Shown here one piece after another: positions 4,110 to 26,490 of a stretch of DNA of 37,386 bases. The translations under genes were made by a program, and so were the position numbers. The stretch is from Candidatus Riflebacteria bacterium GWC2_50_8 (GTDB lineage Bacteria > Muiribacteriota > Ozemobacteria > Ozemobacterales > Ozemobacteraceae): assembly GCA_001787855.1 (NCBI GenBank), contig MFYY01000255.1, forward strand, positions 1,410 to 38,795, in the 5' to 3' direction. A model generated the notes under the pieces. The model did no database searches, had not been told where the DNA came from, and saw only the letters and a program-made list of their open reading frames with translations. Every line of letters starts with the position of its first letter. Positions within the stretch are counted from its first letter, which is position 1.

Positions 4110-5387
4110 ATGAATCAGGAAACCCAGATTGTCGATGACGGCATCATTGCCGAAGGAGTCGAACTGCCACTCGAAAAAAAACTCATACTCGGCCTGCAGC
4201 ACGCCTTCACCATGTTCGGCGCTACGGTCCTGGTGCCGCTGATCACCGGCCTTGATGTTTCGGTCGCCCTGTTCATGGCTGGCGTCGGCACCCTTGTCTT
4301 TCATCTGGTAACCGGCGGCAAAGTCCCGGTTTTTCTTGGTTCATCATTCGCCTTTATCGCGCCTCTGGCGGCTGTTACCGGCGCTTTCGGCACTGATGCC
4401 TTCAAGCCGGAAATGATGCCATACGCCCTCGGCGGCGCTTTTGTCGCCGGCCTGATGTATCTTCTTCTCGCCGGTCTGGTTTACGCCTACGGCTACCAGA
4501 AAGTCGTCTCTTTCTTTCCACCGGTAGTTACCGGCCCGATCATCATGGTTATCGGTCTTAAACTAGCACCAGTCGCCATTAACATGGCCAGCTCGGGTTG
4601 GTTTCTCGCCATTATCAGCTTCACCATCGTGACCTGTGTCAGCATTTTTGCCCGGGGTTTTCTCAAAGTGCTGCCGGTTCTCTGCGGCCTGATCGGCGGT
4701 TATCTGGTTGCAATACTGATGGGCAAAGTCGATTTCAGCCATCTTATGAGCAGCGGCTGGCTGGCCTGCCCGGGCTTTATCATGGCAAAATTCGATCTGC
4801 AGATAATAATGCTCGTTGCTCCCGTAGCCATTGCGACCATGGTTGAGCACATCGGCGACGTGCTCGCCATCAGCGAAACCGTTAAAAAGCGCTTTATCGA
4901 AGAACCTGGTCTGCACCGCACCCTGATCGGCGACGGTCTCGCCACCGCCCTTTCGACACTTTTCGGCGGCCCGCCGAACACCACCTATTCTGAGAACACT
5001 GGTGTTATCGCGCTGACCAAAGTTCATAATCCTCTGGTCATGCGAATTGCCGCCGTTTTTGCCATCATTATGGGCATAGTTCCCAAGCTTGGCTGCATCA
5101 TTTCCACGATCCCGGCAGCAGTTGTTGGCGGCATCTCTATAATACTCTTTGGCATGATCGCGGCAATCGGCGCCAGAAGCCTGATCGAAAACCGTATTGA
5201 CCTCAGCCAGCCGCGCAACCTGATCATCGTCGCCGTCATTCTCGTGCTCGGTCTGGGCGGCGCCGCGCTGCCCGTCGAAATCGGTTCAATCAGTTTCAAA
5301 GTCGAAGGAATGGCACTGGCCGCCATGATCGGCATCTTCCTGAACAAACTCCTGCCCGAAACATCAGACAAAGTTGATATGCCGTGA
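4110..5387 (+). CDS. uraA: Uracil/xanthine permease, NCS2 family
   Basis: A 425-residue polytopic inner-membrane protein of the nucleobase:cation symporter-2 family, normal length for UraA/PyrP. The opening [20 protein letters not shown] and the next span ending [19 protein letters not shown] are typical of uracil permeases. The family substrate loop reads [18 protein letters not shown] (near residue 290), and [12 protein letters not shown] (near 247) carries the conserved Glu of the substrate site. About 12-14 hydrophobic segments are visible. It imports uracil (or a related base) with protons for pyrimidine salvage. Start supported by GGGGAGG just upstream. It stands alone between a terminator and a convergent gene. 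Uracil is more likely than xanthine as substrate, but this is not certain. Confidence 0.9.
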
Positions 5388-5421
5388 GCTTGATTGCAAA
5401 AGAGACTCAGCGCAACAGCCT

Positions 5422-5994
5422 TCAGCGCTCGTCGACAATTCTGTAATAAATTATTGTCCCAATCTCAAAAGTTTTCAAAACGCCTTTGTCGATCAAAGAC
5501 TTAAGAGGCGCTTCAAGAGCGCTTTTTAAGGGACCCTTCGCCTTTTCCATAAGCCCATAAATTGACAGCTGGTCTTTCTTGCACTTGCAGAAAATATTGA
5601 TAACAGCCTTCTCATCTCTGCTCAGACTGCTGATTTTGCCGCTTAACCGGCGGTGTATCTCACTTTTAAATTCCTTCGCCTTATTCTTATAAAACTGCAG
5701 CAGATCGGCCAGGGCTTCTTCAGAAAGCTCAAGGTATACGTCCTCGTCAGACTCGTTGCAGATCTCGTTATCAACGTAGCGGTTGCGTTTATAAATCGTT
5801 CTGCACCTGCGGCAGCGAATAATCGAAAAATAAAATCCTTCATCGTATATTACTCTGAACTTTTCGAATTCTTCTGGCGGCACATGGTCATGATGGTAAT
5901 CGACCGTATAGTAGCTGCCAATTTTTTTGCAGAATTCACATTTCAGGGAAACCGCCGCATCGGTTGCTGGTCGCTTCTTCTTTTTTTCTGCCAT
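5422..5994 (-). CDS. Small zinc-ribbon protein, unknown function (190 aa)
   Basis: I chose the ATG at 5994-5992: it has AGGTGA 5 nt upstream, whereas the GTG at 6003 overlaps that same ribosome site. Two CxxC pairs (Cys19/Cys22 and Cys61/Cys64) form a likely zinc ribbon, separated by a His/aromatic-rich stretch (VDYHHDHVPPEEF). The middle is acidic and helical, and the last 60 residues (LKSLIDKGVLKTFEIGTIIY) look like a small winged helix. Its start lies 5 nt beyond the stop of the ankyrin gene, so the two are translationally linked. A DNA- or protein-binding role is likely; no family is recognised. Confidence 0.75.
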   Translation of the reverse strand: MAEKKKKRPATDAAVSLKCEFCKKIGSYYTVDYHHDHVPPEEFEKFRVIYDEGFYFSIIRCRRCRTIYKRNRYVDNEICNESDEDVYLELSEEALADLLQFYKNKAKEFKSEIHRRLSGKISSLSRDEKAVINIFCKCKKDQLSIYGLMEKAKGPLKSALEAPLKSLIDKGVLKTFEIGTIIYYRIVDER

Positions 5995-15845: not shown

Positions 15846-16015
15846 AACAGTCACTCCTCATCTAGCCGAGAGCCTGGCATAAGATGTATAATCTGAGTCG
15901 AATCATTGAATTCATAAAACCTGAGAAAAAAATGTAATTGGGCTCTTGTACGTTGGCGGGCATTGTGATAACCTTTGCACATCTCACAAAACACCCCCCG
16001 CCGGAGCCAACATAC

Positions 16016-16936
16016 GTGCCCGTAAACGAGCTGATAGAGCGCTATCTCGAAGTGCTGGCCAAAGAACGACTGATGTCGCCGAATACCGTGCGCGGTTATC
16101 GCAGCGATCTCGAATTTTTTAAAAACTGGCTGGCGCAGAATAACGTTACCGAGGCCGAAAATCTCGAAACACTCAGCCATGCGCTGTTGCGCTCATTCTG
16201 GGCAGAACGCCGCAACAATGGCCTCTCGCCGCAGAGCATGCGCCGTGGCCAGTCGGCACTGCGCGGCCTCTTCAAGTTTGCCCGCCGCCAGAAGCTTATC
16301 GAAGCAAATCCGGCCGCAACCATGGACTCCCCAAGGCGCCAGTTGCCGCTGCCAAAAGCACTTAGCGAAGAAGACATCAACCTGCTGCTCAACGCACCAG
16401 ACCTGCAGACCCTTAACGGCATGCGCGACCGCGCTATCCTTGAAACGCTATACGGCAGCGGCCTGCGCGTTTCAGAAGCAGCAACACTGACCATCGACAA
16501 TCTCGACCTCGACGTGCAACAGGCGCGGGTAACCGGCAAGGGCAGTAAGGATCGCATCGTGCCGCTGACTCCGCTTTCCTGCCAGACCATACATGCCTAT
16601 CTGCAGGCCAGAAACGCGCAGATGCCTCAGCAGAAGCAAAACCAGCACCTTTTTTTGAACAAATTCGGCACCGCACTCAGCACACGCTCGATGGCCCGCA
16701 TCATCGACAAATATGCGCGCCAGCTCGCGATGATGATGAACATCACACCACATCAGTTCAGACACAGCTTTGCTACCCATCTTCTCAACAACGGCGCCGA
16801 TATCCGGGCAGTGCAGGAAATGCTTGGCCACGAAAGCCTGTCGACAACACAAATTTATACGCGAATCAGCAAAGAGCGTCTGATGCAGACCTACAGACTC
16901 TCTCACCCAAGAGCAGGAGACAAAAATGACTTATAG
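16016..16936 (+). CDS. xerC: Tyrosine recombinase XerC/XerD type
   Basis: A 306-residue site-specific recombinase. I take the GTG at 16016-16018 as start: GGAG lies 9 nt upstream and the N-terminal domain then begins as in XerC/D (VNELIERYLEVLAKERLMSP). The frame is open back to 15938, but that part looks like promoter (TTGTAC at 15946 with TAACCT at 15969). The C-terminal catalytic set is complete: Arg in GSGLRVSEAATL, Lys in VTGKGSKDRIVPL, HQFRHSFATH, LGHESLSTTQIYTR with the nucleophilic Tyr. It resolves chromosome dimers at dif with a partner. Immediately followed by hslV with an 11-nt overlap, as in the Bacillus codV-clpQ-clpY cluster. XerC rather than XerD rests on this context. Confidence 0.9.
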   Translation: MPVNELIERYLEVLAKERLMSPNTVRGYRSDLEFFKNWLAQNNVTEAENLETLSHALLRSFWAERRNNGLSPQSMRRGQSALRGLFKFARRQKLIEANPAATMDSPRRQLPLPKALSEEDINLLLNAPDLQTLNGMRDRAILETLYGSGLRVSEAATLTIDNLDLDVQQARVTGKGSKDRIVPLTPLSCQTIHAYLQARNAQMPQQKQNQHLFLNKFGTALSTRSMARIIDKYARQLAMMMNITPHQFRHSFATHLLNNGADIRAVQEMLGHESLSTTQIYTRISKERLMQTYRLSHPRAGDKNDL

Positions 16937-17462
16937 AGGAACAACTATCCTGGCAGTTCTCAAAGACAATATTCTTGCCGTCGGCGGCGATGGCCAGGTA
17001 ACTCTTGGCGAACAGATCATCAAGGCAAAAGCGGTAAAAATAAGACGCCTGAACGCCTACCCGATCATTGGCGGTTTTGCCGGGCACACTGCCGACGCCT
17101 TCACTCTTTTTGAAAGATTCGAAACCCGCCTAGAATCGGCATCGGGAAACATGACGCGCGCAGCCGTTGAGCTTGCCCGTGACTGGCGCCTCGACAAAGC
17201 CCTGCGTCAACTGCAGGCCATGCTGCTGGTCGGCAACTCAGATAAAATTCTGGTCTTGTCAGGACAGGGCGATGTGCTCGAACCTGACGAACCAATAGCA
17301 GCGATCGGCTCAGGCGCACCTATTGCCACAGCGGCTGCGAAGGCCCTTTTCCGCAACACGCAGCTTTCAGCAGTCGAAATTGTCAAAAACGCCATGGCGA
17401 TTACCGCCGAACAGTGCATATACACGAATAATGAGATTGTTGTGGAGGTTCTTGAAAAGTGA
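16926..17462 (+). CDS. hslV: HslV (ClpQ) peptidase subunit
   Basis: 178 residues, usual length for the proteolytic subunit of the HslUV (ClpQY) ATP-dependent protease; cytoplasmic, two hexamers. The core signatures are present: GGDGQVTLGEQIIKAKAVKI, IIGGFAGHTADAFTLFERFE, ELARDWRLDKALRQLQAML and the C-terminal IYTNNEIVVEVL. The N-terminus reads MTYRG-TTILAVL, so the catalytic Thr is residue 6 and a 5-residue propeptide must be removed. AGGAG precedes the ATG by 8 nt. The start overlaps the end of xerC by 11 nt, and the stop overlaps the hslU start by 4 nt (GTGA). Confidence 0.95.
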   Translation: MTYRGTTILAVLKDNILAVGGDGQVTLGEQIIKAKAVKIRRLNAYPIIGGFAGHTADAFTLFERFETRLESASGNMTRAAVELARDWRLDKALRQLQAMLLVGNSDKILVLSGQGDVLEPDEPIAAIGSGAPIATAAAKALFRNTQLSAVEIVKNAMAITAEQCIYTNNEIVVEVLEK

Positions 17463-18880
17463 ACGAGAATATGATTCAGAAAGACGGCGAAATGACCCCG
17501 CAGCAGACCGTTGAAGAGCTTGACCGCTATGTTATCGGCCAGCACAAAGCCAAACGCGCGGTCGCTATTTCATTGCGCAACCGTTATCGGCGCCGCCAGC
17601 TCAGTCGCGAACTGCGCGAAGACATTCGACCCAAGAATCTGCTGCTGATCGGCCCGACCGGCGTTGGAAAAACCGAAATTGCCCGCCGTATTGCCAACAT
17701 TTCAGGTATACCCTTTGTAAAAGTTGAGGCGACCAAGTTTACCGAAGTCGGTTACGTAGGTCGCGATGTCGACTCGATGGTGCGCGACCTCGTCGAAGTC
17801 AGCATGAGCCTGCTGCGTGCTCAACGAATCGAGCAGATGGGGCCAAAAGCACGCGAACGCGCCCACGAAAAACTGCTCGACACGCTGTATCCGGAGAGTC
17901 GAAAATATCACCCCCTAAGTGGCTATGAAAAACACTCAGACAAACATGGCAACCTGTCGATGTGTATAGAAGAGACTGATTCTGTATCGGCAAAACGCCA
18001 GCAGTTATCGGAACAATTGAAATCAGGCGAACTGAACGAAAAGGAGGTAGAAATCGACGTGAACGAACAGACGACACCGATGGTCGAAGTTTTCTCCTCC
18101 CAGACCGGCTTTGAAGAGATGGGCATTAACATGCAGGGGCTGCAGAGCATGTTGGGAAATATGCTACCCAGTCGACAGAAACGCCGCCGCGTAAAAATCA
18201 GCGAGGCCCGCGACATCCTGTTTCAGGAAGAAATGAACAACCTTATCGATCACGATGAACTGCAGAAAGAAGCGCTCAGTCTGGCTCAGGAGAGCGGCGT
18301 TATCTTTCTCGACGAGATCGACAAGATTGCCTCTTCCTATACAAGCAATACCGGACCCGATGTATCACGAGAAGGCGTTCAACGCGACCTGCTGCCACTC
18401 GTCGAAGGCACCAGCGTAATGACCAAGTATGGCATCGTCAAGACTGACCATATCTTGTTTTTTGCCGCCGGTGCGTTTAACGTCAGCAAACCGTCTGATC
18501 TGATTCCCGAACTGCAGGGCCGCTTTCCGGTGCGGGTCGAATTCGACGCGCTCAACATTGAAGACTTCAAACGCATACTCGTCGAACCGCAAAACGCCCT
18601 GACCCGGCAGTATAAAGCACTGCTCGGCGTTGACGGACTTGATGTCGAGTTCACCGATGACGCGATTGAAGCCATTGCCCGCTTCGCATTTCAGGCTAAC
18701 GCTGACCACGAGAATATCGGGGCGCGGCGCCTGCACACCATCATGGAACAACTGATGGAAGAAGCAGCTTTTGATGCACCACAGAAGCTCAGCGGCAAGT
18801 ATGCAATTGATGGCGGAAGCGTCGAAAAAGCCATTGCTCCGCTGCTCAAGAACCACGACCTGGCAAGATTCATTCTCTAA
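17459..18880 (+). CDS. hslU: HslU (ClpY) ATPase subunit
   Basis: 473 residues; AAA+ unfoldase that feeds substrates to HslV. Walker A GPTGVGKTEIARR near residue 64, followed by the pore region EVGYVGRDVDSMVRDLVE; the I domain spans about residues 105-245; Walker B is VIFLDEIDKIASS; then VQRDLLPLVEG, LQGRFPVRVEF and the sensor-2 region NIGARRLHTIMEQLMEEAAF. The C-terminal DLARFIL matches the HslV-docking tail (xxFIL). Start: GTG at 17459, overlapping the hslV stop, with GGAGG about 12 nt upstream; ATG at 17471 lacks a good site. Length slightly above E. coli (443), mostly in the I domain. Confidence 0.95.
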   Translation: MNENMIQKDGEMTPQQTVEELDRYVIGQHKAKRAVAISLRNRYRRRQLSRELREDIRPKNLLLIGPTGVGKTEIARRIANISGIPFVKVEATKFTEVGYVGRDVDSMVRDLVEVSMSLLRAQRIEQMGPKARERAHEKLLDTLYPESRKYHPLSGYEKHSDKHGNLSMCIEETDSVSAKRQQLSEQLKSGELNEKEVEIDVNEQTTPMVEVFSSQTGFEEMGINMQGLQSMLGNMLPSRQKRRRVKISEARDILFQEEMNNLIDHDELQKEALSLAQESGVIFLDEIDKIASSYTSNTGPDVSREGVQRDLLPLVEGTSVMTKYGIVKTDHILFFAAGAFNVSKPSDLIPELQGRFPVRVEFDALNIEDFKRILVEPQNALTRQYKALLGVDGLDVEFTDDAIEAIARFAFQANADHENIGARRLHTIMEQLMEEAAFDAPQKLSGKYAIDGGSVEKAIAPLLKNHDLARFIL

Positions 18881-18904: not shown

Positions 18905-19327
18905 ATGTTTGAAAGATTGACCGGAACCGCTACCCTGAACCTTCTCGCCAAAGGGCTTGAAGTTTCATCGGTGCGGCACAAGGTAATTTCCAACAACATT
19001 GCCAACGTCAACACCCCACTCTTCAAGCGCCAGATTGTCACTTTCGAAGATGAAATGGCAAAGGTTTTTGACGGCAAAATCGATCTGGTCGGCAAACGCG
19101 AGAACAACGGACATATTCCGATCGGCGAGATCAACTACCATGATGTCGGGCCGACCACGATTAAAGACCGTATTCACGTAATGCGCAACGACAAGAACAA
19201 CGTTGATATCGACGTTGAAATGAGCGATCTGGCCAAGAACACCATGACCTACCAGATCCATGCCACCCGCCTGGCCGCCATGTTTGCCGGACTGAATGAC
19301 GTAATCACCAGAGGAGGTAAAGCCTGA
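18905..19327 (+). CDS. flgB: Flagellar proximal rod protein FlgB
   Basis: 140 residues. The flagellar rod signature lies at the N-terminus: VSSVRHKVISNNIANVNTPL followed by FKRQIVTFE, and the C-terminal amphipathic helix is MSDLAKNTMTYQIHATRLAA. FlgB forms the proximal rod after export through the flagellar type III apparatus, so no signal peptide is expected. AAGGGAG precedes ATG. Starts 24 nt after hslU and overlaps flgC by one base (TGATG). In Bacillus codY sits between hslU and flgB; here there is no gene between. Confidence 0.95.
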   Translation: MFERLTGTATLNLLAKGLEVSSVRHKVISNNIANVNTPLFKRQIVTFEDEMAKVFDGKIDLVGKRENNGHIPIGEINYHDVGPTTIKDRIHVMRNDKNNVDIDVEMSDLAKNTMTYQIHATRLAAMFAGLNDVITRGGKA

Positions 19328-19767
19328 TGGGTATGTTCAGAGCAATTGACACATCATCTTCCGGTCTGACCGCCGAGCGCCTGCGTATGGACGTCATCTC
19401 GAACAACATCGCCAATGTTAATACCACCAGAACTGAAGACGGCGAACCGTTCAGACGCAAGATGGTTATATTCGAAGCGCGCAGCGCGCAGGGCCGCTGG
19501 CCTTTCCAGGATCGCCTGAACCCACAGCAGCCTGGAAAAGGCGTCAGAGTAAACGCTATCATGGAAGATATGGCGCCGTTCAAAATGGAGTATGACCCGA
19601 ATCACCCCGATGCAGACGCCGAGGGCTACATTCGTCGGCCGAACATCAACATAGTGCACGAAATGGTGGACATGATCACCGCCACACGTGCATACGAAGC
19701 TAACGTAACCTGCATCAACTCGGCAAAGGACATCACCAATGCCGCACTTGGTATAGGAGGAAGATGA
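19327..19767 (+). CDS. flgC: Flagellar proximal rod protein FlgC
   Basis: 146 residues. N-terminal rod motif SSGLTAERLRMDVISNNIAN, then VNTTRTEDGEPFRRKMVIFE, and a C-terminal NINIVHEMVDMITATRAYEA rod/hook motif. AGGAGG (19312-19317) precedes the ATG by 8 nt, and the ATG overlaps the flgB stop, so the pair are translationally coupled. Proximal rod subunit, exported by the flagellar apparatus. Confidence 0.95.
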   Translation: MGMFRAIDTSSSGLTAERLRMDVISNNIANVNTTRTEDGEPFRRKMVIFEARSAQGRWPFQDRLNPQQPGKGVRVNAIMEDMAPFKMEYDPNHPDADAEGYIRRPNINIVHEMVDMITATRAYEANVTCINSAKDITNAALGIGGR

Positions 19768-19773
19768 TAAACA

Positions 19774-20073
19774 ATGCGAGTAGTTGAACGAAATCCGTGG
19801 GTAGACATTAACAAGAAGCCAGAGAAACCATCGACCAATGCCAAAGAGCAGTGGGGTATGTTTCTCGACAAGTTTCAGACCGCTATTGACGAAGTCGATG
19901 CACTCGGCAAGACCTCGGAAAAGCTCACTCAGGATGCCGTTCTTGGTCGTGTAGACAATCTGCACGACGTCATGATTGCCGCAGAAAAAGCCAAGACCGC
20001 GATGAATCTTACCCTTGAAGTCAGGGGAAAAGTAATCGAGGCATACAAAGAAATAATGCGCATGAATTTTTAA
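19774..20073 (+). CDS. fliE: Flagellar hook-basal body protein FliE
   Basis: 99 residues, usual length. Typical C-terminal half: DNLHDVMIAAEKAKTAMNLT and LEVRGKVIEAYKEIMRMNF, with the conserved YxEIMRM end. FliE joins the MS ring (FliF) to the rod. GGAGG (19758-19762) overlaps the end of flgC and serves as ribosome site 11 nt before the ATG. The gene begins 6 nt after flgC and ends 115 nt before fliF, the largest gap in this block. Confidence 0.95.
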   Translation: MRVVERNPWVDINKKPEKPSTNAKEQWGMFLDKFQTAIDEVDALGKTSEKLTQDAVLGRVDNLHDVMIAAEKAKTAMNLTLEVRGKVIEAYKEIMRMNF

Positions 20074-20188: not shown

Positions 20189-22087
20189 ATGACCGATTTT
20201 CTCAGGCAACTATGGGAACCGATTGCAAAATTACCCAGAAGCCAGCAGATAGCGCTGGCAGCAATAGTAGGCGTAGTAATTCTGGGTATCGCAACCGCCT
20301 CGATGTGGGGCACACAAAAAGAATTTACTCCGCTGTTCGAAGAAAAGCTCAAACTTGAAGATGCCGGCAAAGTAGTTGCCAAGCTTCAGGAGCTGACCAT
20401 CGAGTATAAACTCGGTGCAGATTCCACCGACATTCACGTGCCCCTTCCTGACAAGTCATACATTCTGTTGCAGCTCGCCCAGGAAAAAACCCTGCCCCAG
20501 GCAAAAGCCGGCTGGCAGACACTTATCGATCAGCGCTCAATGTTTACCGGGCAGACGCAGCAGGAATTCGACCTGAACTATGTGCGTGGCCTGCAGGCCG
20601 AACTCGAAGAGACCCTTATTCGCATGGGTCCGATCGAAGAAGCCAGCGTCAGCATCGTCAAGCCCAAAAAAGAAGTATTTAAGGAAGATCAGCGCGAGCC
20701 TTCGGCCAGCATTCTGCTGAAACTCAGACCAGGCGCCGAAGTTAACCAGGACCAGGTGCGCGCCATTCGCGACTGGGTATGCTCAGCCGTAGAAGGCCTC
20801 AACCCTGACAAAATCAGAATCGCCGACACCGAAGCCCGCGATCTGACCAGGATCATCGAAGACGAAGAAGCGATGACCCTCGACAAAGTTCAGACCGCGC
20901 AGATGAAATACACACGAAATCGCGAAAACCACCTGCGCTCAGAACTGCAGAGCCTGCTCGAAAGCACTTTCGGTTACGGCCGTGCTATTGTCAGAGTTCG
21001 TCTTGATGTTGACTTTGACCAGAAGGAAGCGGTCAGCGACGTGGTAATTCCTCCGGTAGAAGGCATGAATTCAGGCCTTAAGCTCTCAGAGAAACTCGAA
21101 GAAGAAGAATATAAAGGTAAAGACCTCGTTGAAGATGGCGAACCGGGAGTCAATTCGAATCTGCCTCCTGGTGCACCGGCTTATCCAGGAACTGAAAATT
21201 CGACCTGGAACGAATACAAGCGCAACGCTGCCATCACCAACTATGAATTCACCAGATCCAAGGAAAAGTTTGTTAAGGAACAGGGCACCATCCGACGCCT
21301 GACTGTTTCGGTAGTTTTGAACGATGACCCGACCGCCATGGGCACGCTCGAAGAAAAGATCACTGAAATTGCCAAAACAACCGTCGGATTCGACAAAGAA
21401 CGCGGCGACAAGCTCGCACTGATGGTATTACCATTCAGAAATGACGAACTTGATGCTGCCAAGGCTGCCTTTGACCTGAAGAAACAGCAGGAGAAACAGA
21501 TGTTCATGATCGTTGTAGGCCTACTCATGTCATTCCCGGTATTTCTCGGCCTGATCTACATTTTTGTCAGGGTATCGAGAGCCAGAGCGCTCACCAGAGA
21601 ACAGCAGCGCCTGGCCGAGGCCGCAGCAGAAGCCGAAGCACTCAAATTTGCGCGCGACAACGCTTCTTTGCGCCAGAATGAGCAGAAATGGCAGGATTGG
21701 GAAAGAAGATTCAAAGATATCAAGAATTTCTTCCCGGAAATTGGCGATCTTGAAGAAAAGAAGCGCAAAGTACAGGATCTGCGTCACCAGGCCTATCAGT
21801 ATGCCATGAACAACGACGGCATGCCGGGCGACTTTGAAGAAATGACGCCCGAGGAACAGTTCATCTATCGCGAAGCATTCCAGAAAAAGGACAATGGAAC
21901 TCTCGAAGAAGGCTTCAACAGACTCGACACCATTATCAAAGAACGCGACCGCGAAAGAGAAGAAGAACTCGCCAAGCTCAACGAGCAGGCGAACGCCCGC
22001 GAGCTTCTCGAACAACGCGTCAGAAATCTTGTCAGCAGCAAGCCAGAAGACGCCGTACAGGTATTGCGTCTGTGGCTGAACAAATAA
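20189..22087 (+). CDS. fliF: Flagellar MS-ring protein FliF
   Basis: 632 residues, longer than the usual ~550. First membrane span near residues 20-42 (IALAAIVGVVILGIATASMW), then the secretin-like ring-building motifs (PLFEEKLKLEDAGKVVAKLQ and SVSIVKPKKEVFKEDQREPS), the family segment ASILLKLRPGAEV and the long middle domain. Second span near 438-460 (IVVGLLMSFPVFLGLIYIFV). The cytoplasmic tail after it is about 170 residues, roughly 80 longer than in E. coli, mostly charged coiled coil. It ends with KPEDAVQVLRLWLNK, the FliG-binding motif. FliF forms the MS ring in the inner membrane. It is followed after 13 nt by fliG. Confidence 0.95.
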   Translation: MTDFLRQLWEPIAKLPRSQQIALAAIVGVVILGIATASMWGTQKEFTPLFEEKLKLEDAGKVVAKLQELTIEYKLGADSTDIHVPLPDKSYILLQLAQEKTLPQAKAGWQTLIDQRSMFTGQTQQEFDLNYVRGLQAELEETLIRMGPIEEASVSIVKPKKEVFKEDQREPSASILLKLRPGAEVNQDQVRAIRDWVCSAVEGLNPDKIRIADTEARDLTRIIEDEEAMTLDKVQTAQMKYTRNRENHLRSELQSLLESTFGYGRAIVRVRLDVDFDQKEAVSDVVIPPVEGMNSGLKLSEKLEEEEYKGKDLVEDGEPGVNSNLPPGAPAYPGTENSTWNEYKRNAAITNYEFTRSKEKFVKEQGTIRRLTVSVVLNDDPTAMGTLEEKITEIAKTTVGFDKERGDKLALMVLPFRNDELDAAKAAFDLKKQQEKQMFMIVVGLLMSFPVFLGLIYIFVRVSRARALTREQQRLAEAAAEAEALKFARDNASLRQNEQKWQDWERRFKDIKNFFPEIGDLEEKKRKVQDLRHQAYQYAMNNDGMPGDFEEMTPEEQFIYREAFQKKDNGTLEEGFNRLDTIIKERDREREEELAKLNEQANARELLEQRVRNLVSSKPEDAVQVLRLWLNK

Positions 22088-22100
22088 CAGGAGCCAGCAT

Positions 22101-23150
22101 GTGAACCAGGAAGATGGACTGCCTCCTCTCAAAATTGAAGAACTGCCGATACTCGACATACCAGGTCGAGCCAAGGCCGCAATTCTGCTGATCTTTCTTG
22201 GCCCGGAAACCAGCGGCGCCATTCTGCAGGCGCTTTCAGATTCAGAAATTGAAACCCTGACCATCGAAATTGCCAAGCAGCGCAAGATTTCGACCGAAGA
22301 TAAGCTCGCGGTGCTGTTTGAGTTTGAACAGCAGATGATGGCTCGCAAGTTCTACGCCGAAGGCGGCCTTGAATACGCCAAACATCTGCTTGAACAAACT
22401 ATCGGCCCGGGCAAAGCTCTTGAAATCCTGGCTAAAATGGGTACTTCGCTGCAGATTCAGCCGTTTGAAGCAGCGCGAACTGCCGACCCAACCCAACTGG
22501 CAACACTTATTCAGAATGAACACCCACAGACAGTGGCTCTTATTCTTGCTTACCTGCAACCCGAAAAATCTGCGGTTATTCTGCAGTCAATGACGCCGGA
22601 CACTCAGGTAGAAATTGCCAAGCGCCTGGCGTTGATGGACCGCACCAGTCCTGATATCACCCGCGAAGTTGAGAACTACCTCGAAGAGCGCCTGTCTTCG
22701 ATCATCGGGCAGGATTTCACCAGCGTCGGCGGTATCGATTCTCTTATCGGCGTATTGAACGCGGTAGAACGCGCAGTCGAAAAGAACATTATCGAAACCA
22801 TGGAAGTTCAGGAACCAAGCTTGGCCGAAGAAGTCAAGAAGCGCCTGTTCGTCTTCGAAGATGTGGTGCTTATCGACGACCGCAGTCTGCAGCGCCTGAT
22901 GAAGGAAATCGACATGAAAGACCTCTCGATCTCGCTCAAGGGCGTTACCGACGAAGTCAAAGAAAAATTCTACAAGAACATGTCGAAACGTGCGGCAGAA
23001 ATGCTCAAAGAAGAAATGGCATACATGGGTCCGGTGCGCATGCGCGATGTCGATCAGGCTCAGCAGCGTATCGTGGCCATAGTGAAGAAACTCGAAGCCA
23101 GGGGCGAGGTTGTAATTTCTCGACCGGGAGAGGAGGAACTGATTGGCTAA
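22101..23150 (+). CDS. fliG: Flagellar motor switch protein FliG
   Basis: 349 residues, normal length. N domain (PGRAKAAILLIFLGPETSGA), middle domain with the FliM-binding EHPQ in IQNEHPQTVALILAYLQ, the Gly-Gly hinge (SVGGIDSLIGVLNAVE) and the torque C domain from KKRLFVFEDVVLIDDRSLQR. Functional charges line up with E. coli K264, R281, D288/D289 and R297 as Lys (SLKG), Arg (SKRAAEM), Glu-Glu (LKEEMA) and Arg (GPVRM). The start is GTG with AGGAG 7 nt upstream; an ATG two bases earlier is immediately stopped. Cytoplasmic C-ring protein; overlaps the next gene, a FliG-C paralogue, by 8 nt. Confidence 0.95.
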   Translation: MNQEDGLPPLKIEELPILDIPGRAKAAILLIFLGPETSGAILQALSDSEIETLTIEIAKQRKISTEDKLAVLFEFEQQMMARKFYAEGGLEYAKHLLEQTIGPGKALEILAKMGTSLQIQPFEAARTADPTQLATLIQNEHPQTVALILAYLQPEKSAVILQSMTPDTQVEIAKRLALMDRTSPDITREVENYLEERLSSIIGQDFTSVGGIDSLIGVLNAVERAVEKNIIETMEVQEPSLAEEVKKRLFVFEDVVLIDDRSLQRLMKEIDMKDLSISLKGVTDEVKEKFYKNMSKRAAEMLKEEMAYMGPVRMRDVDQAQQRIVAIVKKLEARGEVVISRPGEEELIG

Positions 23151-23589
23151 GACGCAACTTGGAAACAGCACAGGCCTTGAAATACTCGCGAACATCATGC
23201 GGCATTGCGATGCCAAAACGAATCGCCATATTCTTGGCGGCCTGCAGAAGGAACTGCCACAGATTGTCAGCGAACTGCGCCGGCACATTCTTCTCTTCGA
23301 CGACCTTGCTTATGCCGATGCACGCGGTTTGCAACGCCTGCTCAAAATCATCAGAATACGTGATCTCGCGGTTTCATTGCAGGGTGCCCCGGCTGCTGTT
23401 CTTAAAAATATCGCAGCCAACATGTCACAGCGCGCCCTCAACGATCTCAAGGACGAGATTACCAGGCTTGGCAAGGCACGCGACCAGGAAGTCGATGCCG
23501 CCAGAGACCGTATCATGGCAGTCGTTGCCGAGCTGATGAACGGCAAAGAACTGTTCATTTCCCGCCCGAATGATGACCTCGTCTATTAA
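23143..23589 (+). CDS. Stand-alone FliG C-terminal-domain paralogue
   Basis: 148 residues aligning along nearly their whole length with the last ~140 residues of the preceding FliG: STGLEILANIMRHCD with GGIDSLIGVLNAVE, RRHILLFDDLAYADARGLQR with KRLFVFEDVVLIDDRSLQR, and NMSQRALNDLKDEI with NMSKRAAEMLKEEM. The N and EHPQ middle domains are missing. Of the torque residues, Arg97, Asp104/Glu105 and Arg113 are kept, but the Lys of E. coli K264 is Gln80, and Pro of GPVR is Lys. The start is TTG with AGGAGG 7 nt upstream, overlapping fliG by 8 nt, so expression is coupled. Probably a switch-ring accessory; function unproven. Distinct from full-length FliG duplicates. Confidence 0.85.
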   Translation: MAKTQLGNSTGLEILANIMRHCDAKTNRHILGGLQKELPQIVSELRRHILLFDDLAYADARGLQRLLKIIRIRDLAVSLQGAPAAVLKNIAANMSQRALNDLKDEITRLGKARDQEVDAARDRIMAVVAELMNGKELFISRPNDDLVY

Positions 23590-23603: not shown

Positions 23604-24719
23604 ATGGGTAAAATTTACAAGCCGCACCAGATAAAAATCGACAGTCAAAAGCCGATTTTCATTGATCACCGGCAAAAAATTGCTAAGCCAGAAGTCGATC
23701 TCGAACCGGCAGAAGACGCTTTTGCTGTAGAGACTTTTCGAGCCCTGTCACCCGAACATCTCGCCGGATCTGGCGAAAAGATCTTGACAAAGCAGGCGCA
23801 GAAAGCGGCTGAACCAGGGGCGGATCAGGCAAGGCCTGACGCTGAAAAAGCAGCGGCAGAGCCGGTTTCATTTCTTTCGCCGGCAGCAAAGAAGTCACGG
23901 CATGCCGCCGCTCTTGAAGCAATAAAAATCAAGGAACTTGAACTGGAAGCTCTTGAAGAAGAGCTACGCAACTGGGAAGAAGAGCTCAAAGGCAAAGAAG
24001 GCAAGCTGACGGCACAAGAACAGGACTTCAGCCAGAACATGCTTAAAAAGCGGCACGACGCCGACTCCGACGCGAACCAGAGCGTGCAAACAGCCCGCGA
24101 AACTGCCGCTACAATTGTAGAAACCGCAAAAGCAGAAGCAGAGGCGATCAAAAAAGCGGCCAGGCTCGAAGTTGATTCGGTGCGCGATAAAGCCTATAAA
24201 GAGGGTTTCGCTCTTGGCGAAGAAAAGGGCATCGCAGCCGGTGAAAAGCAGGGCCTGCATGAAGCATCACTTGACTGGCAGAACCTCATGCTGGAAAGCG
24301 AAGCACTCATCAACGAACTGCAGACCTCCCGTATGGGCATTCTCAAGGCATCAGAAGAAGAGATGCTCAAGCTCGTCATCGCTTTTGCCCGCACGGTAAT
24401 CAAGGTCGAACCGATCGCCCAGCCCGAGATCGTTCTTAAAAATATCGATCAGGCACTCAACCGCGTATCCGAAGTCGACAAGGTGGTTTTGCGCATCAAC
24501 ATCAGAGACAAAGCAATGTGTCAGGCGCATAAAGACCAGTTCATGGCCCGCCTCGGTTCGATCAGTGAACTTCGCATCATTGAAGACCCGACTCTTTCGC
24601 CCGGCGGCATCAAGATCGAAACTGGCGTTGGCACCATCGACGCGACCATCGAATCACAGGCCCGCGAACTTGAACGCGCGCTGCTCAACAAGTTTAGAAA
24701 AACCCAGGCAAATACATGA
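23604..24719 (+). CDS. fliH: Flagellar assembly protein FliH, long form
   Basis: 371 residues against about 230 in E. coli. Residues 1-90 look disordered and basic/acidic mixed; 95-200 form a long coiled coil (IKIKELELEALEEELRNWEE) with an Ala-rich AKAEAEAIKKAARLEVDS segment; the C-terminal domain from about 240 is the conserved part, ending DPTLSPGGIKIETGVGTIDA and ESQARELERALLNKF. FliH forms a dimer that holds and regulates the FliI ATPase at the export gate. AGGGA is only a fair ribosome site. Ends in ATGA overlap with fliI. Confidence 0.92.
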   Translation: MGKIYKPHQIKIDSQKPIFIDHRQKIAKPEVDLEPAEDAFAVETFRALSPEHLAGSGEKILTKQAQKAAEPGADQARPDAEKAAAEPVSFLSPAAKKSRHAAALEAIKIKELELEALEEELRNWEEELKGKEGKLTAQEQDFSQNMLKKRHDADSDANQSVQTARETAATIVETAKAEAEAIKKAARLEVDSVRDKAYKEGFALGEEKGIAAGEKQGLHEASLDWQNLMLESEALINELQTSRMGILKASEEEMLKLVIAFARTVIKVEPIAQPEIVLKNIDQALNRVSEVDKVVLRINIRDKAMCQAHKDQFMARLGSISELRIIEDPTLSPGGIKIETGVGTIDATIESQARELERALLNKFRKTQANT

Positions 24720-26035
24720 GCGACATCTCATTTTCAGACTACGCAGCGACTCTCGCCAACACAGATCCGATAAGAGTTAACGGCAGAGTCACTCAGGTCG
24801 TCGGTCTGTTGATAGAGGCAACCGGCCCACAGAATCCGGTCGGCGATGTCTGCCACATTGTTACCCCAACCGGCCCATTGCCCTGCGAAATCGTTGGTTT
24901 CCGCCGCGGCAGCGTGCTGCTCATGCCGTTGATTCATACCGAAGGCATCAGGCAGGGCAGCGAAGTTATTCCGACCGGCACTCCGCTCACCGCGCCGGCC
25001 GGCGACGAACTGCTTGGGCGCATGATCGACGGTCTCGGCTTCCCGATTGACGAAAAAGGCGATCTTTCGCCGCAGATAGCAAGGGTTCCCATCAACCGGG
25101 ACCCCCCGAATCCGATGACTCGCAAGCGCATAAAAACTCCCCTGACAACCGGAGTAAAAGTTATCGACAGTCTGCTGACCATCGGCGGCGGCCAGCGCAT
25201 GGGTATTTTTGCAGGTTCCGGCGTCGGGAAAAGCACGCTTATGGGCATGATCTGCCGTTCTTCACAGGCAGATATCAATGTTATTGCACTGGTCGGCGAA
25301 CGAGGCCGCGAAGTTCGCGAGTTTCTCGAAAAAGACCTTGGTGAGGAAGGCTTGCGGCGCTCGATTATAGTTGTAGCGACTTCTGATCAGCCCGCGCTGG
25401 TTCGCGTCAAAGCAGCATTTACCGCAACTGCCATCGCAGAATATTTCAGAGACCGTGACAAAAGAGTAATGCTGATGATGGACTCAGTTACCCGCTTTGC
25501 GCTGGCTCAGCGCGAAATCGGCCTGGCAGTAGGCGAACCGCCAACGACCAGAGGCTATACACCGTCTGTATTCTCGCTGCTCCCCAAACTTCTTGAACGC
25601 GCCGGTACTGCCAAAAAAGGCTCAATCACTGGTATCTACACAGTACTTGTCGAAGGCGGCGACATGGATGAACCGGTTGCCGACGCAGTGCGCGGTATTC
25701 TCGACGGGCATCTGGTGCTCAGTCGCGAACTTGCTCACCAGAACATCTATCCCGCGGTCGATATTCTCGCCAGCATTTCCCGCCTTATGCCCGAAATCTG
25801 CGAAAAATCCCACCTCGAAATGGCCGGCAAGCTCCGCAACATTTATTCCACTTACGTAAAAAATGCCGACGCAATCAGCCTGGGTGCATACAAAGCCGGG
25901 TCCGATCCTAAGATCGACGAAGCAATACAAAAGCATCCGTTGATCGAGGGCTTGATCAAGCAGGGAATTAATGAAGCGGTTCCTTTCGCAAAGTGCCTTG
26001 AAGCATTGAGTAAAATTGTCGGTCAGGGCGGCTGA
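24716..26035 (+). CDS. fliI: Flagellum-specific ATPase FliI
   Basis: 439 residues, usual length. Walker A GIFAGSGVGKSTLMGMI near residue 165, then NVIALVGERGREVREFLE, Walker B MLMMDSVTRFALAQREIGLA and the family stretch RGYTPSVFSLLPKLLERAGT followed by TGIYTVLVEGGDMDEPVADA. Cytoplasmic ATPase of the flagellar type III export apparatus, partner of FliH and FliJ. The ATG overlaps the fliH stop (ATGA), so translation is coupled. Confidence 0.95.
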   Translation: MSDISFSDYAATLANTDPIRVNGRVTQVVGLLIEATGPQNPVGDVCHIVTPTGPLPCEIVGFRRGSVLLMPLIHTEGIRQGSEVIPTGTPLTAPAGDELLGRMIDGLGFPIDEKGDLSPQIARVPINRDPPNPMTRKRIKTPLTTGVKVIDSLLTIGGGQRMGIFAGSGVGKSTLMGMICRSSQADINVIALVGERGREVREFLEKDLGEEGLRRSIIVVATSDQPALVRVKAAFTATAIAEYFRDRDKRVMLMMDSVTRFALAQREIGLAVGEPPTTRGYTPSVFSLLPKLLERAGTAKKGSITGIYTVLVEGGDMDEPVADAVRGILDGHLVLSRELAHQNIYPAVDILASISRLMPEICEKSHLEMAGKLRNIYSTYVKNADAISLGAYKAGSDPKIDEAIQKHPLIEGLIKQGINEAVPFAKCLEALSKIVGQGG

Positions 26036-26037
26036 TC

Positions 26038-26490
26038 ATGGCATTTGTTTTTCGCTTTCAGCAGATACTGCAGATCTGCCTGCACGAAGAGAACGAAGTT
26101 AAAACGCGTCTTGCCCAGAAAGACGGACAAATTGCCGGAATCAAGGCAGAAATCAAAAAATTTAAAGACGAATATGCTCAGGCCCTCGACAATAAGATTC
26201 TCGATCTGCAGGCCGGAAATATGACCAAAGTTCAAATGTATCCGGCTTACCTGGCGCGGCTTCAAAGAGCATGGGAGTTTAATGAAGAAGAACTTGAGCG
26301 ACTCGAAAAGCAGCGCCAGAAAATTGTCGACGAGCTTATGGTCAAGCGCCGCAGTCGCATGACCTACGAAAAAATGCGCGAAAAAGACGAAGCCGCCTAT
26401 ACCAAGGAAATGCTTAAAAAAGAGCAGAAAAAGCTCGATGAATACGGCAACCGTATTCGCAAATCGGCAGGAGATAACGACGATGCTTGA
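26038..26490 (+). CDS. fliJ: Flagellar FliJ-like export chaperone
   Basis: 150 residues, almost wholly coiled coil, starting FVFRFQQILQICLHEENEVK, the usual FliJ opening (FxFxLQxLLxxRxxxE). Charged heptads continue to KRRSRMTYEKMREKDEAAYT. The family is low in sequence conservation, so the call rests on pattern, length and position directly after fliI (2-nt gap). Promotes export by the FliI ring and FlhA. Overlaps the next gene by 8 nt. Confidence 0.9.
   Translation: MAFVFRFQQILQICLHEENEVKTRLAQKDGQIAGIKAEIKKFKDEYAQALDNKILDLQAGNMTKVQMYPAYLARLQRAWEFNEEELERLEKQRQKIVDELMVKRRSRMTYEKMREKDEAAYTKEMLKKEQKKLDEYGNRIRKSAGDNDDA

Follow-up and report, generated by a model that had tools for sequence, protein, structure and literature searches.

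In the Ozemobacteraceae, a family of uncultured bacteria in the phylum Riflebacteria, the flagellar gene fliG is directly followed by a small gene whose product corresponds to the C-terminal half of a FliG protein alone, hereafter half-FliG. This gene is real and conserved, and it is not described in the literature that we searched. The example analysed here lies in the window, i.e. a stretch of 37,386 nt of Candidatus Riflebacteria bacterium GWC2_50_8 (MFYY01000255.1), to which coordinates refer (Table 1). Our preferred reading, with a probability of roughly 0.45, is that half-FliG arose by a single ancestral duplication and binds the ARM_M surface of FliG through its own ARM_C repeat, as a subunit of the switch ring with an accessory or assembly role.

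Table 1. Flagellar operon of the window and elements of the half-FliG gene.
Feature	Position	Strand	Basis
flgB, flgC, fliE	18905..20073	+	Pfam
fliF	20189..22087	+	YscJ_FliF, YscJ_FliF_C
fliG, intact full-length FliG, 349 aa, GTG start by ORF call	22101..23150	+	FliG_N, FliG_M, FliG_C; TIGR00207
AGGAGG ribosome-binding site within the 3' coding end of fliG (...GEEELIG)	23131..23136	+	direct reading
8-nt overlap TTGGCTAA of the half-FliG start with the fliG stop	23143..23150	+	direct reading
half-FliG paralogue (ARM_C + C1-6 domain), TTG start, 148 aa	23143..23589	+	ORF, Pfam, TIGR00207, fold, 20 complete orthologues
predicted ARM_C part, about residues 4-46 (helices 11-19, 24-37, 39-46)	23153..23280	+	AlphaFold2 pLDDT about 75-81; alignment
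predicted degenerate MFXF hinge (ILLF) and C1-6 torque domain, about residues 47-141	23281..23565	+	pLDDT mostly >93; 1qc7_A
fliH	23604..24719	+	Pfam FliH 4.1e-25; spacing
fliI	24716..26035	+	ATP-synt_ab, T3SS_ATPase_C
fliJ	26038..26490	+	Pfam FliJ 1e-14

The initial annotation had described a 148-residue protein that aligns with the C-terminal domain of FliG and is devoid of the N-terminal and EHPQ middle domains, and both parts of this description are confirmed. Half-FliG matches the Pfam family FliG_C (PF01706) with an E-value of 2.4e-22 and 79.7 bits, above the gathering threshold of 23.3, and the Pfam search returns no other credible match. It can be aligned without any gap to residues 211-345 of the adjacent FliG, with 33% identity over 135 aa, and a sequence search of the PDB leads to FliG structures. 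Along the NCBIfam model of FliG (TIGR00207, 338 positions), half-FliG covers positions 197-334 only and reaches 80.2 bits, below the curated cut-off of 226.7 for a full FliG, whereas the adjacent FliG reaches 388 bits. Pfam detects in half-FliG neither FliG_N, the domain docking on FliF, nor FliG_M with its EHPQ motif; both are present in the neighbouring FliG, which reads NEHPQT. The absence of a FliG_C fold had been named as a reason to abandon this assignment. It does not apply, as the FliG_C family is clearly matched by all 20 half-FliG orthologues (E<=0.01).

Half-FliG is more than a torque domain, because the ARM_C repeat (residues about 11-46) is also present, i.e. the part that in FliG forms the surface stacking on ARM_M. 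The AlphaFold2 model of half-FliG, a monomer built from the 20 orthologues, has a mean pLDDT of 84.9 and a pTM of 0.69. When it is compared to known structures with Foldseek, it matches the C1-6 domain 1qc7_A (rmsd 1.4 Å, 94 columns), and the best full-length agreement is obtained with 8wiw_3, a FliG of the clockwise-state C-ring (TMq 0.79, rmsd 2.1 Å, 132 columns). The model confirms the predicted ARM_C + C1-6 fold; as AlphaFold training included FliG structures, it says little on the orientation of the two domains.

The start of the gene is also as first annotated, with a TTG codon, a strong ribosome-binding site and an overlap of 8 nt with fliG, the perfect AGGAGG being located 6 nt upstream of the TTG. 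Wherever the fliG 3' end can be read, i.e. in 21 Ozemobacteraceae genomes, the TTG start and the ribosome site are the same, and all 21 junctions retain GAGGAGGA at synonymous positions of fliG. In most of these genomes, a stop codon immediately precedes the TTG. A frameshift or a read-through that would turn the two frames into one longer FliG had been put forward as a possible objection; it is rejected, as the TTG start and a full-length, intact FliG are conserved in all readable genomes of the family. The junction is no sign of a programmed frameshift either, as fliG and fliH of E. coli also overlap by 8 nt, and as the FliH-like gene that follows fliG in genome G043 and in the Riflebacteria family f5 has a TTG start and an overlap of the same length. 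The TTG start and the overlap are thus nothing special to half-FliG. Since this junction corresponds to the fliG-fliH coupling of other bacteria, half-FliG sits where fliH would start and has taken over an existing junction. In the window genome, fliH starts 14 nt after the half-FliG stop, without overlap.

The operon is otherwise ordinary, in the order flgB-flgC-fliE-fliF-fliG-[half-FliG]-fliH-fliI-fliJ. Judging from gene content, the rest of the Ozemobacteraceae motor looks standard. Another contig of the source genome carries fliL, fliM, a FliY-like gene, cheY and fliO, read from the sequence, FliM being assigned by family search; in a congener, the same fliL-fliO cluster, also read from the sequence, continues to fliP and fliR. 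Pairs of motA and motB are read likewise in congeners, with MotA assigned by family search. A duplication of FliM was considered and rejected, as the second, weak FliM match adjoining fliM is FliY-like. An extra stator set was equally rejected as an explanation, as the MotA_N matches are weak or single in most genomes and show no pattern following half-FliG.

Some other features of these motors can be mentioned. A second type of MotA, with a strong MotA_N match (E about 1e-20 to 1e-22), is encoded in G007:C507 and G010:C22 (L075); it adjoins a MotB-like gene in G010, and the MotA of other family members scores weakly. At L072 8158-9210 and L076 6913-8259, a FliY-like protein contains a long linker made of Gly/Met/Pro/Gln repeats (GMGMPGQMPGMGMQG...). 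Directly upstream of flgB, positions 15938-18880 of the window encode a XerC-like integrase, HslV and HslU, an order that recalls the codV-clpQ-clpY-codY-flgB arrangement of Bacillus.

Looking beside fliG in related genomes, as had been advised, shows that half-FliG is not a chance occurrence. A complete ORF of 146-152 codons, always with a TTG start, directly follows fliG in 20 Ozemobacteraceae (family f1) genomes, and the relatives that possess it include Ca. Rifleibacterium, Ca. Ozemobacter and an Ozemobacteraceae bacterium. The start of the gene is present in a 21st genome (G018), in which the contig ends just after. The other three f1 genomes are uninformative: fliG meets the contig end in G004 and is not found in G007 and G016. 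Elsewhere in the phylum, among the Riflebacteria families that could be inspected, there is no FliG_C match directly after fliG, and the gene found at this place is FliH-like in families f2, f4 and f5, with unrelated genes in f3.

The 20 half-FliG proteins form one clade (support 100/100), and their distances track those of the N and M domains of FliG (Mantel r 0.79, 0/5000 permutations). These results show that half-FliG was gained once and then inherited vertically. Its BLAST scores are mostly higher to Riflebacteria FliGs (families f1-f4) than to those of other phyla; grouping it with the f1 FliG is not rejected (AU p 0.475), and the tree does not place its exact origin within FliG. Half-FliG is under purifying selection, yet it evolves much faster than FliG. 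Its pairwise dN/dS values of 0.05-0.29 compare to 0-0.12 in the corresponding FliG_C pairs; several pairs are saturated in their synonymous distances. Pairwise dN indicates that half-FliG evolves roughly 3-30 times faster than FliG_C. The 20 orthologues, their dN/dS and the 21 conserved junctions all support the separate FliG-C paralogue that was initially described, and show that it is conserved, selected and translationally coupled to fliG. It is extremely improbable that the gene is an artefact or is decaying, i.e. that it is a frameshifted or degenerating duplicate devoid of function: the adjacent frames and the high divergence could suggest it, but this is already contradicted by the complete orthologues of constant size, by a dN/dS well below 1, by the conserved start and ribosome site proper to the gene, and by the intact full-length FliG of the same genomes.

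Three of the four torque positions known from E. coli FliG had been reported as kept in half-FliG, which is correct for the sequence of the window but not for the family. In the protein of the window (E. coli numbering), R281, D288 and R297 are kept, D289 is replaced by E and K264 by Q. Across the 20 orthologues, K264 is kept in only 11, R281 in 13 (N in the 7 others) and R297 in 12 (S in 6, K in 2), which requires at least five, three and three changes on the tree, respectively, whereas all three residues are invariant in 22 cognate FliGs. Position 288 is D or E in 13 of the 20 proteins and position 289, acidic (E) in 19, is the only constrained torque position; the five positions are about as variable as an average site within half-FliG. 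The charges that are conserved in FliG (K264, R281, D288/D289, R297) are thus, position 289 apart, not conserved across the half-FliG family, and the torque residues were rejected as evidence of a torque function of the family. The ARM_C part is retained; its variability does not exceed that of the remaining protein, and its positions 198, 199, 202, 218 and 229 are invariant.

The drift in half-FliG of K264, R281 and R297, three residues that do not vary in FliG, makes a dedicated torque role appear unlikely from the sequence comparison, though still conceivable, as FliG is known to tolerate single charge changes. The mixed switch ring, the modulator and the FliG antagonist initially put forward are hypothetical. 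Half-FliG might nevertheless be a torque-competent or torque-modulating rotor subunit, whose C1-6 head would face MotA beside the FliG heads and create a mixed torque surface, resulting in a gear change, a bias or a brake. The conserved C1-6 fold, the nearly constant acidic residue at position 289 and the retention of R281 and R297 in many orthologues, including that of the window, are consistent with such a role, as is the clockwise-state FliG found as best full-length fold match, the domain orientation given by AlphaFold being weak evidence. We regard it as unlikely, given the repeated changes at three positions that never vary in cognate FliG and the lack of an N domain for tethering to FliF. 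Half-FliG could alternatively act on the side of the stator or of FliM, as a decoy FliG head that would bind MotA or FliM and limit the motor, like YcgR-type brakes. A free FliG_C head could in principle occupy the stator or the switch site, and the divergence and fast evolution of half-FliG would fit, but the protein has no regulatory domain, its stator-contact residues are not preserved and a constitutive, coupled start would be odd for a brake, which makes this role quite improbable. Half-FliG more probably serves the motor ring as an accessory or assembly subunit than as a second source of torque.

How half-FliG could act as an accessory or assembly subunit is suggested by the domains that it has kept. 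Assembly and switching of the ring have been linked to the stacking of ARM_C on ARM_M, which in FliG takes place either within a subunit or between subunits (PMC7355467, PMC7505661). Half-FliG possesses the ARM_C donor but neither the ARM_M acceptor nor the FliF anchor, and the start of its gene is coupled to fliG; the simplest account would be that it docks on the ARM_M of FliG. Through one duplication in the ancestor of the Ozemobacteraceae, the 3' half of fliG would have been copied to a site between fliG and fliH, and this copy would have taken over the ancestral translational coupling of these two genes. Half-FliG, composed of ARM_C and C1-6, would then be made in step with FliG, and its ARM_C would bind the ARM_M surface on which the ARM_C of a FliG normally docks. 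It could thereby cap or hold the FliG ARM_M before or during ring assembly or, alternatively, be present at sub-stoichiometric sites in the finished ring, the torque generator remaining the full-length FliG. The binding to FliG, the surface used and the accessory or assembly role are all what we infer from these features.

As every ARM_M of a closed ring is already partnered by an ARM_C, half-FliG must either displace one of them or act before closure. Its fast evolution could argue against docking on ARM_M and reflect a different partner, and the maintenance of the C1-6 domain, which capping would not require, is an argument against pure capping of ARM_M. It is conceivable, though doubtful, that the FliG ring of the Ozemobacteraceae is heteromeric, with half-FliGs in ARM_M sites and a rotor bearing both torque heads and non-torque heads. 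This would be, if true, a natural change to an otherwise homomeric ring. In the usual view, FliG is a full-length ring protein present in a single copy, and the ARM_M/ARM_C exchange is what drives assembly and switching. As a donor without acceptor, present in every readable member of the family, half-FliG offers a natural test of this domain-swap idea, and it would be, if it binds FliG, an assembly factor or a second ring subunit. Our literature search for a FliG assembly factor or second ring subunit of this type, for free FliG_C fragments and for truncated FliG paralogues found nothing relevant.

When compared to known systems, half-FliG shares its fold and an ungapped, 33% identical alignment with the C-terminal half of FliG, and differs from FliG by the absence of FliG_N and FliG_M, the low TIGR00207 score (80 bits vs 226.7), the unconstrained torque residues and the degenerate MFXF hinge. 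Two FliG paralogues also coexist in one genome in Borrelia, where FliG1 and FliG2 are both full-length FliGs, whereas one of the Ozemobacteraceae paralogues is reduced to the C-terminal half. Borrelia FliG1 is reported to be involved in torque generation and FliG2 to be needed for flagellum synthesis (PMC7225975). In the injectisome, the C-terminal part of a C-ring protein is likewise produced as a separate piece in addition to the full-length protein, and this free piece, YscQ_C, is required for C-ring assembly (PMC4295842). SctQ_C, however, is encoded by the gene of the full-length protein itself, through an internal start, and is a FliN-like domain, whereas half-FliG is encoded by a diverged, duplicate gene and is of the FliG_C type. 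In the Campylobacter jejuni C-ring, a FliN/FliY duplication has divided the role of a core component (PMC6946799), these proteins being SPOA-domain proteins and not FliG. By analogy, YscQ_C and Campylobacter FliN/FliY show that arrangements similar to the one proposed here occur in other C-ring components.

Half-FliG could finally have kept only its position in the operon, its fold having been taken over for a non-rotor function, e.g. in the export apparatus via FliH or as an adaptor. We consider this improbable, as the gene is strictly linked to fliG and fliH in the Ozemobacteraceae and its inheritance tracks that of FliG, although FliG_C domains do occur in apparently non-flagellar settings in the phylum and unlinked solo half-FliGs exist in two genomes outside it. 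In a sample of 251 genomes, at least two complete solo FliG_C proteins are indeed encoded outside the phylum, in G170 (150 aa; L069 6763-7215, minus strand) and in G090 (175 aa; L070 3406-3933). Like the Ozemobacteraceae protein, they are composed of ARM_C and C1-6 only but, unlike its gene, theirs are not beside fliG in the stretches read; their grouping with the Ozemobacteraceae clade is neither supported nor rejected (AU p 0.378).

Within the phylum, a 244-aa protein of family f3 (L039 4952-5686, minus strand) consists of an N-terminal Glyoxalase_4 and a C-terminal FliG_C domain, and this fusion suggests that the FliG_C fold can be reused outside the rotor. More FliG_C proteins are encoded in f3, without any evident flagellar operon, at L040 7313-8062 (minus strand), L041 6740-7870, L042 7072-8082 and L043 (rc 4824-5870), that of L040 having an apparent C-terminal transmembrane helix. 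Two ORFs of 84-87 aa in genome G024 (L044, L045) give weak FliG_C matches only. In the sample of 251 genomes, FliG_C is also matched by open frames that exceed a normal FliG in length, with about 450-740 aa, in genomes G102, G106, G229, G232, G080 and G150.
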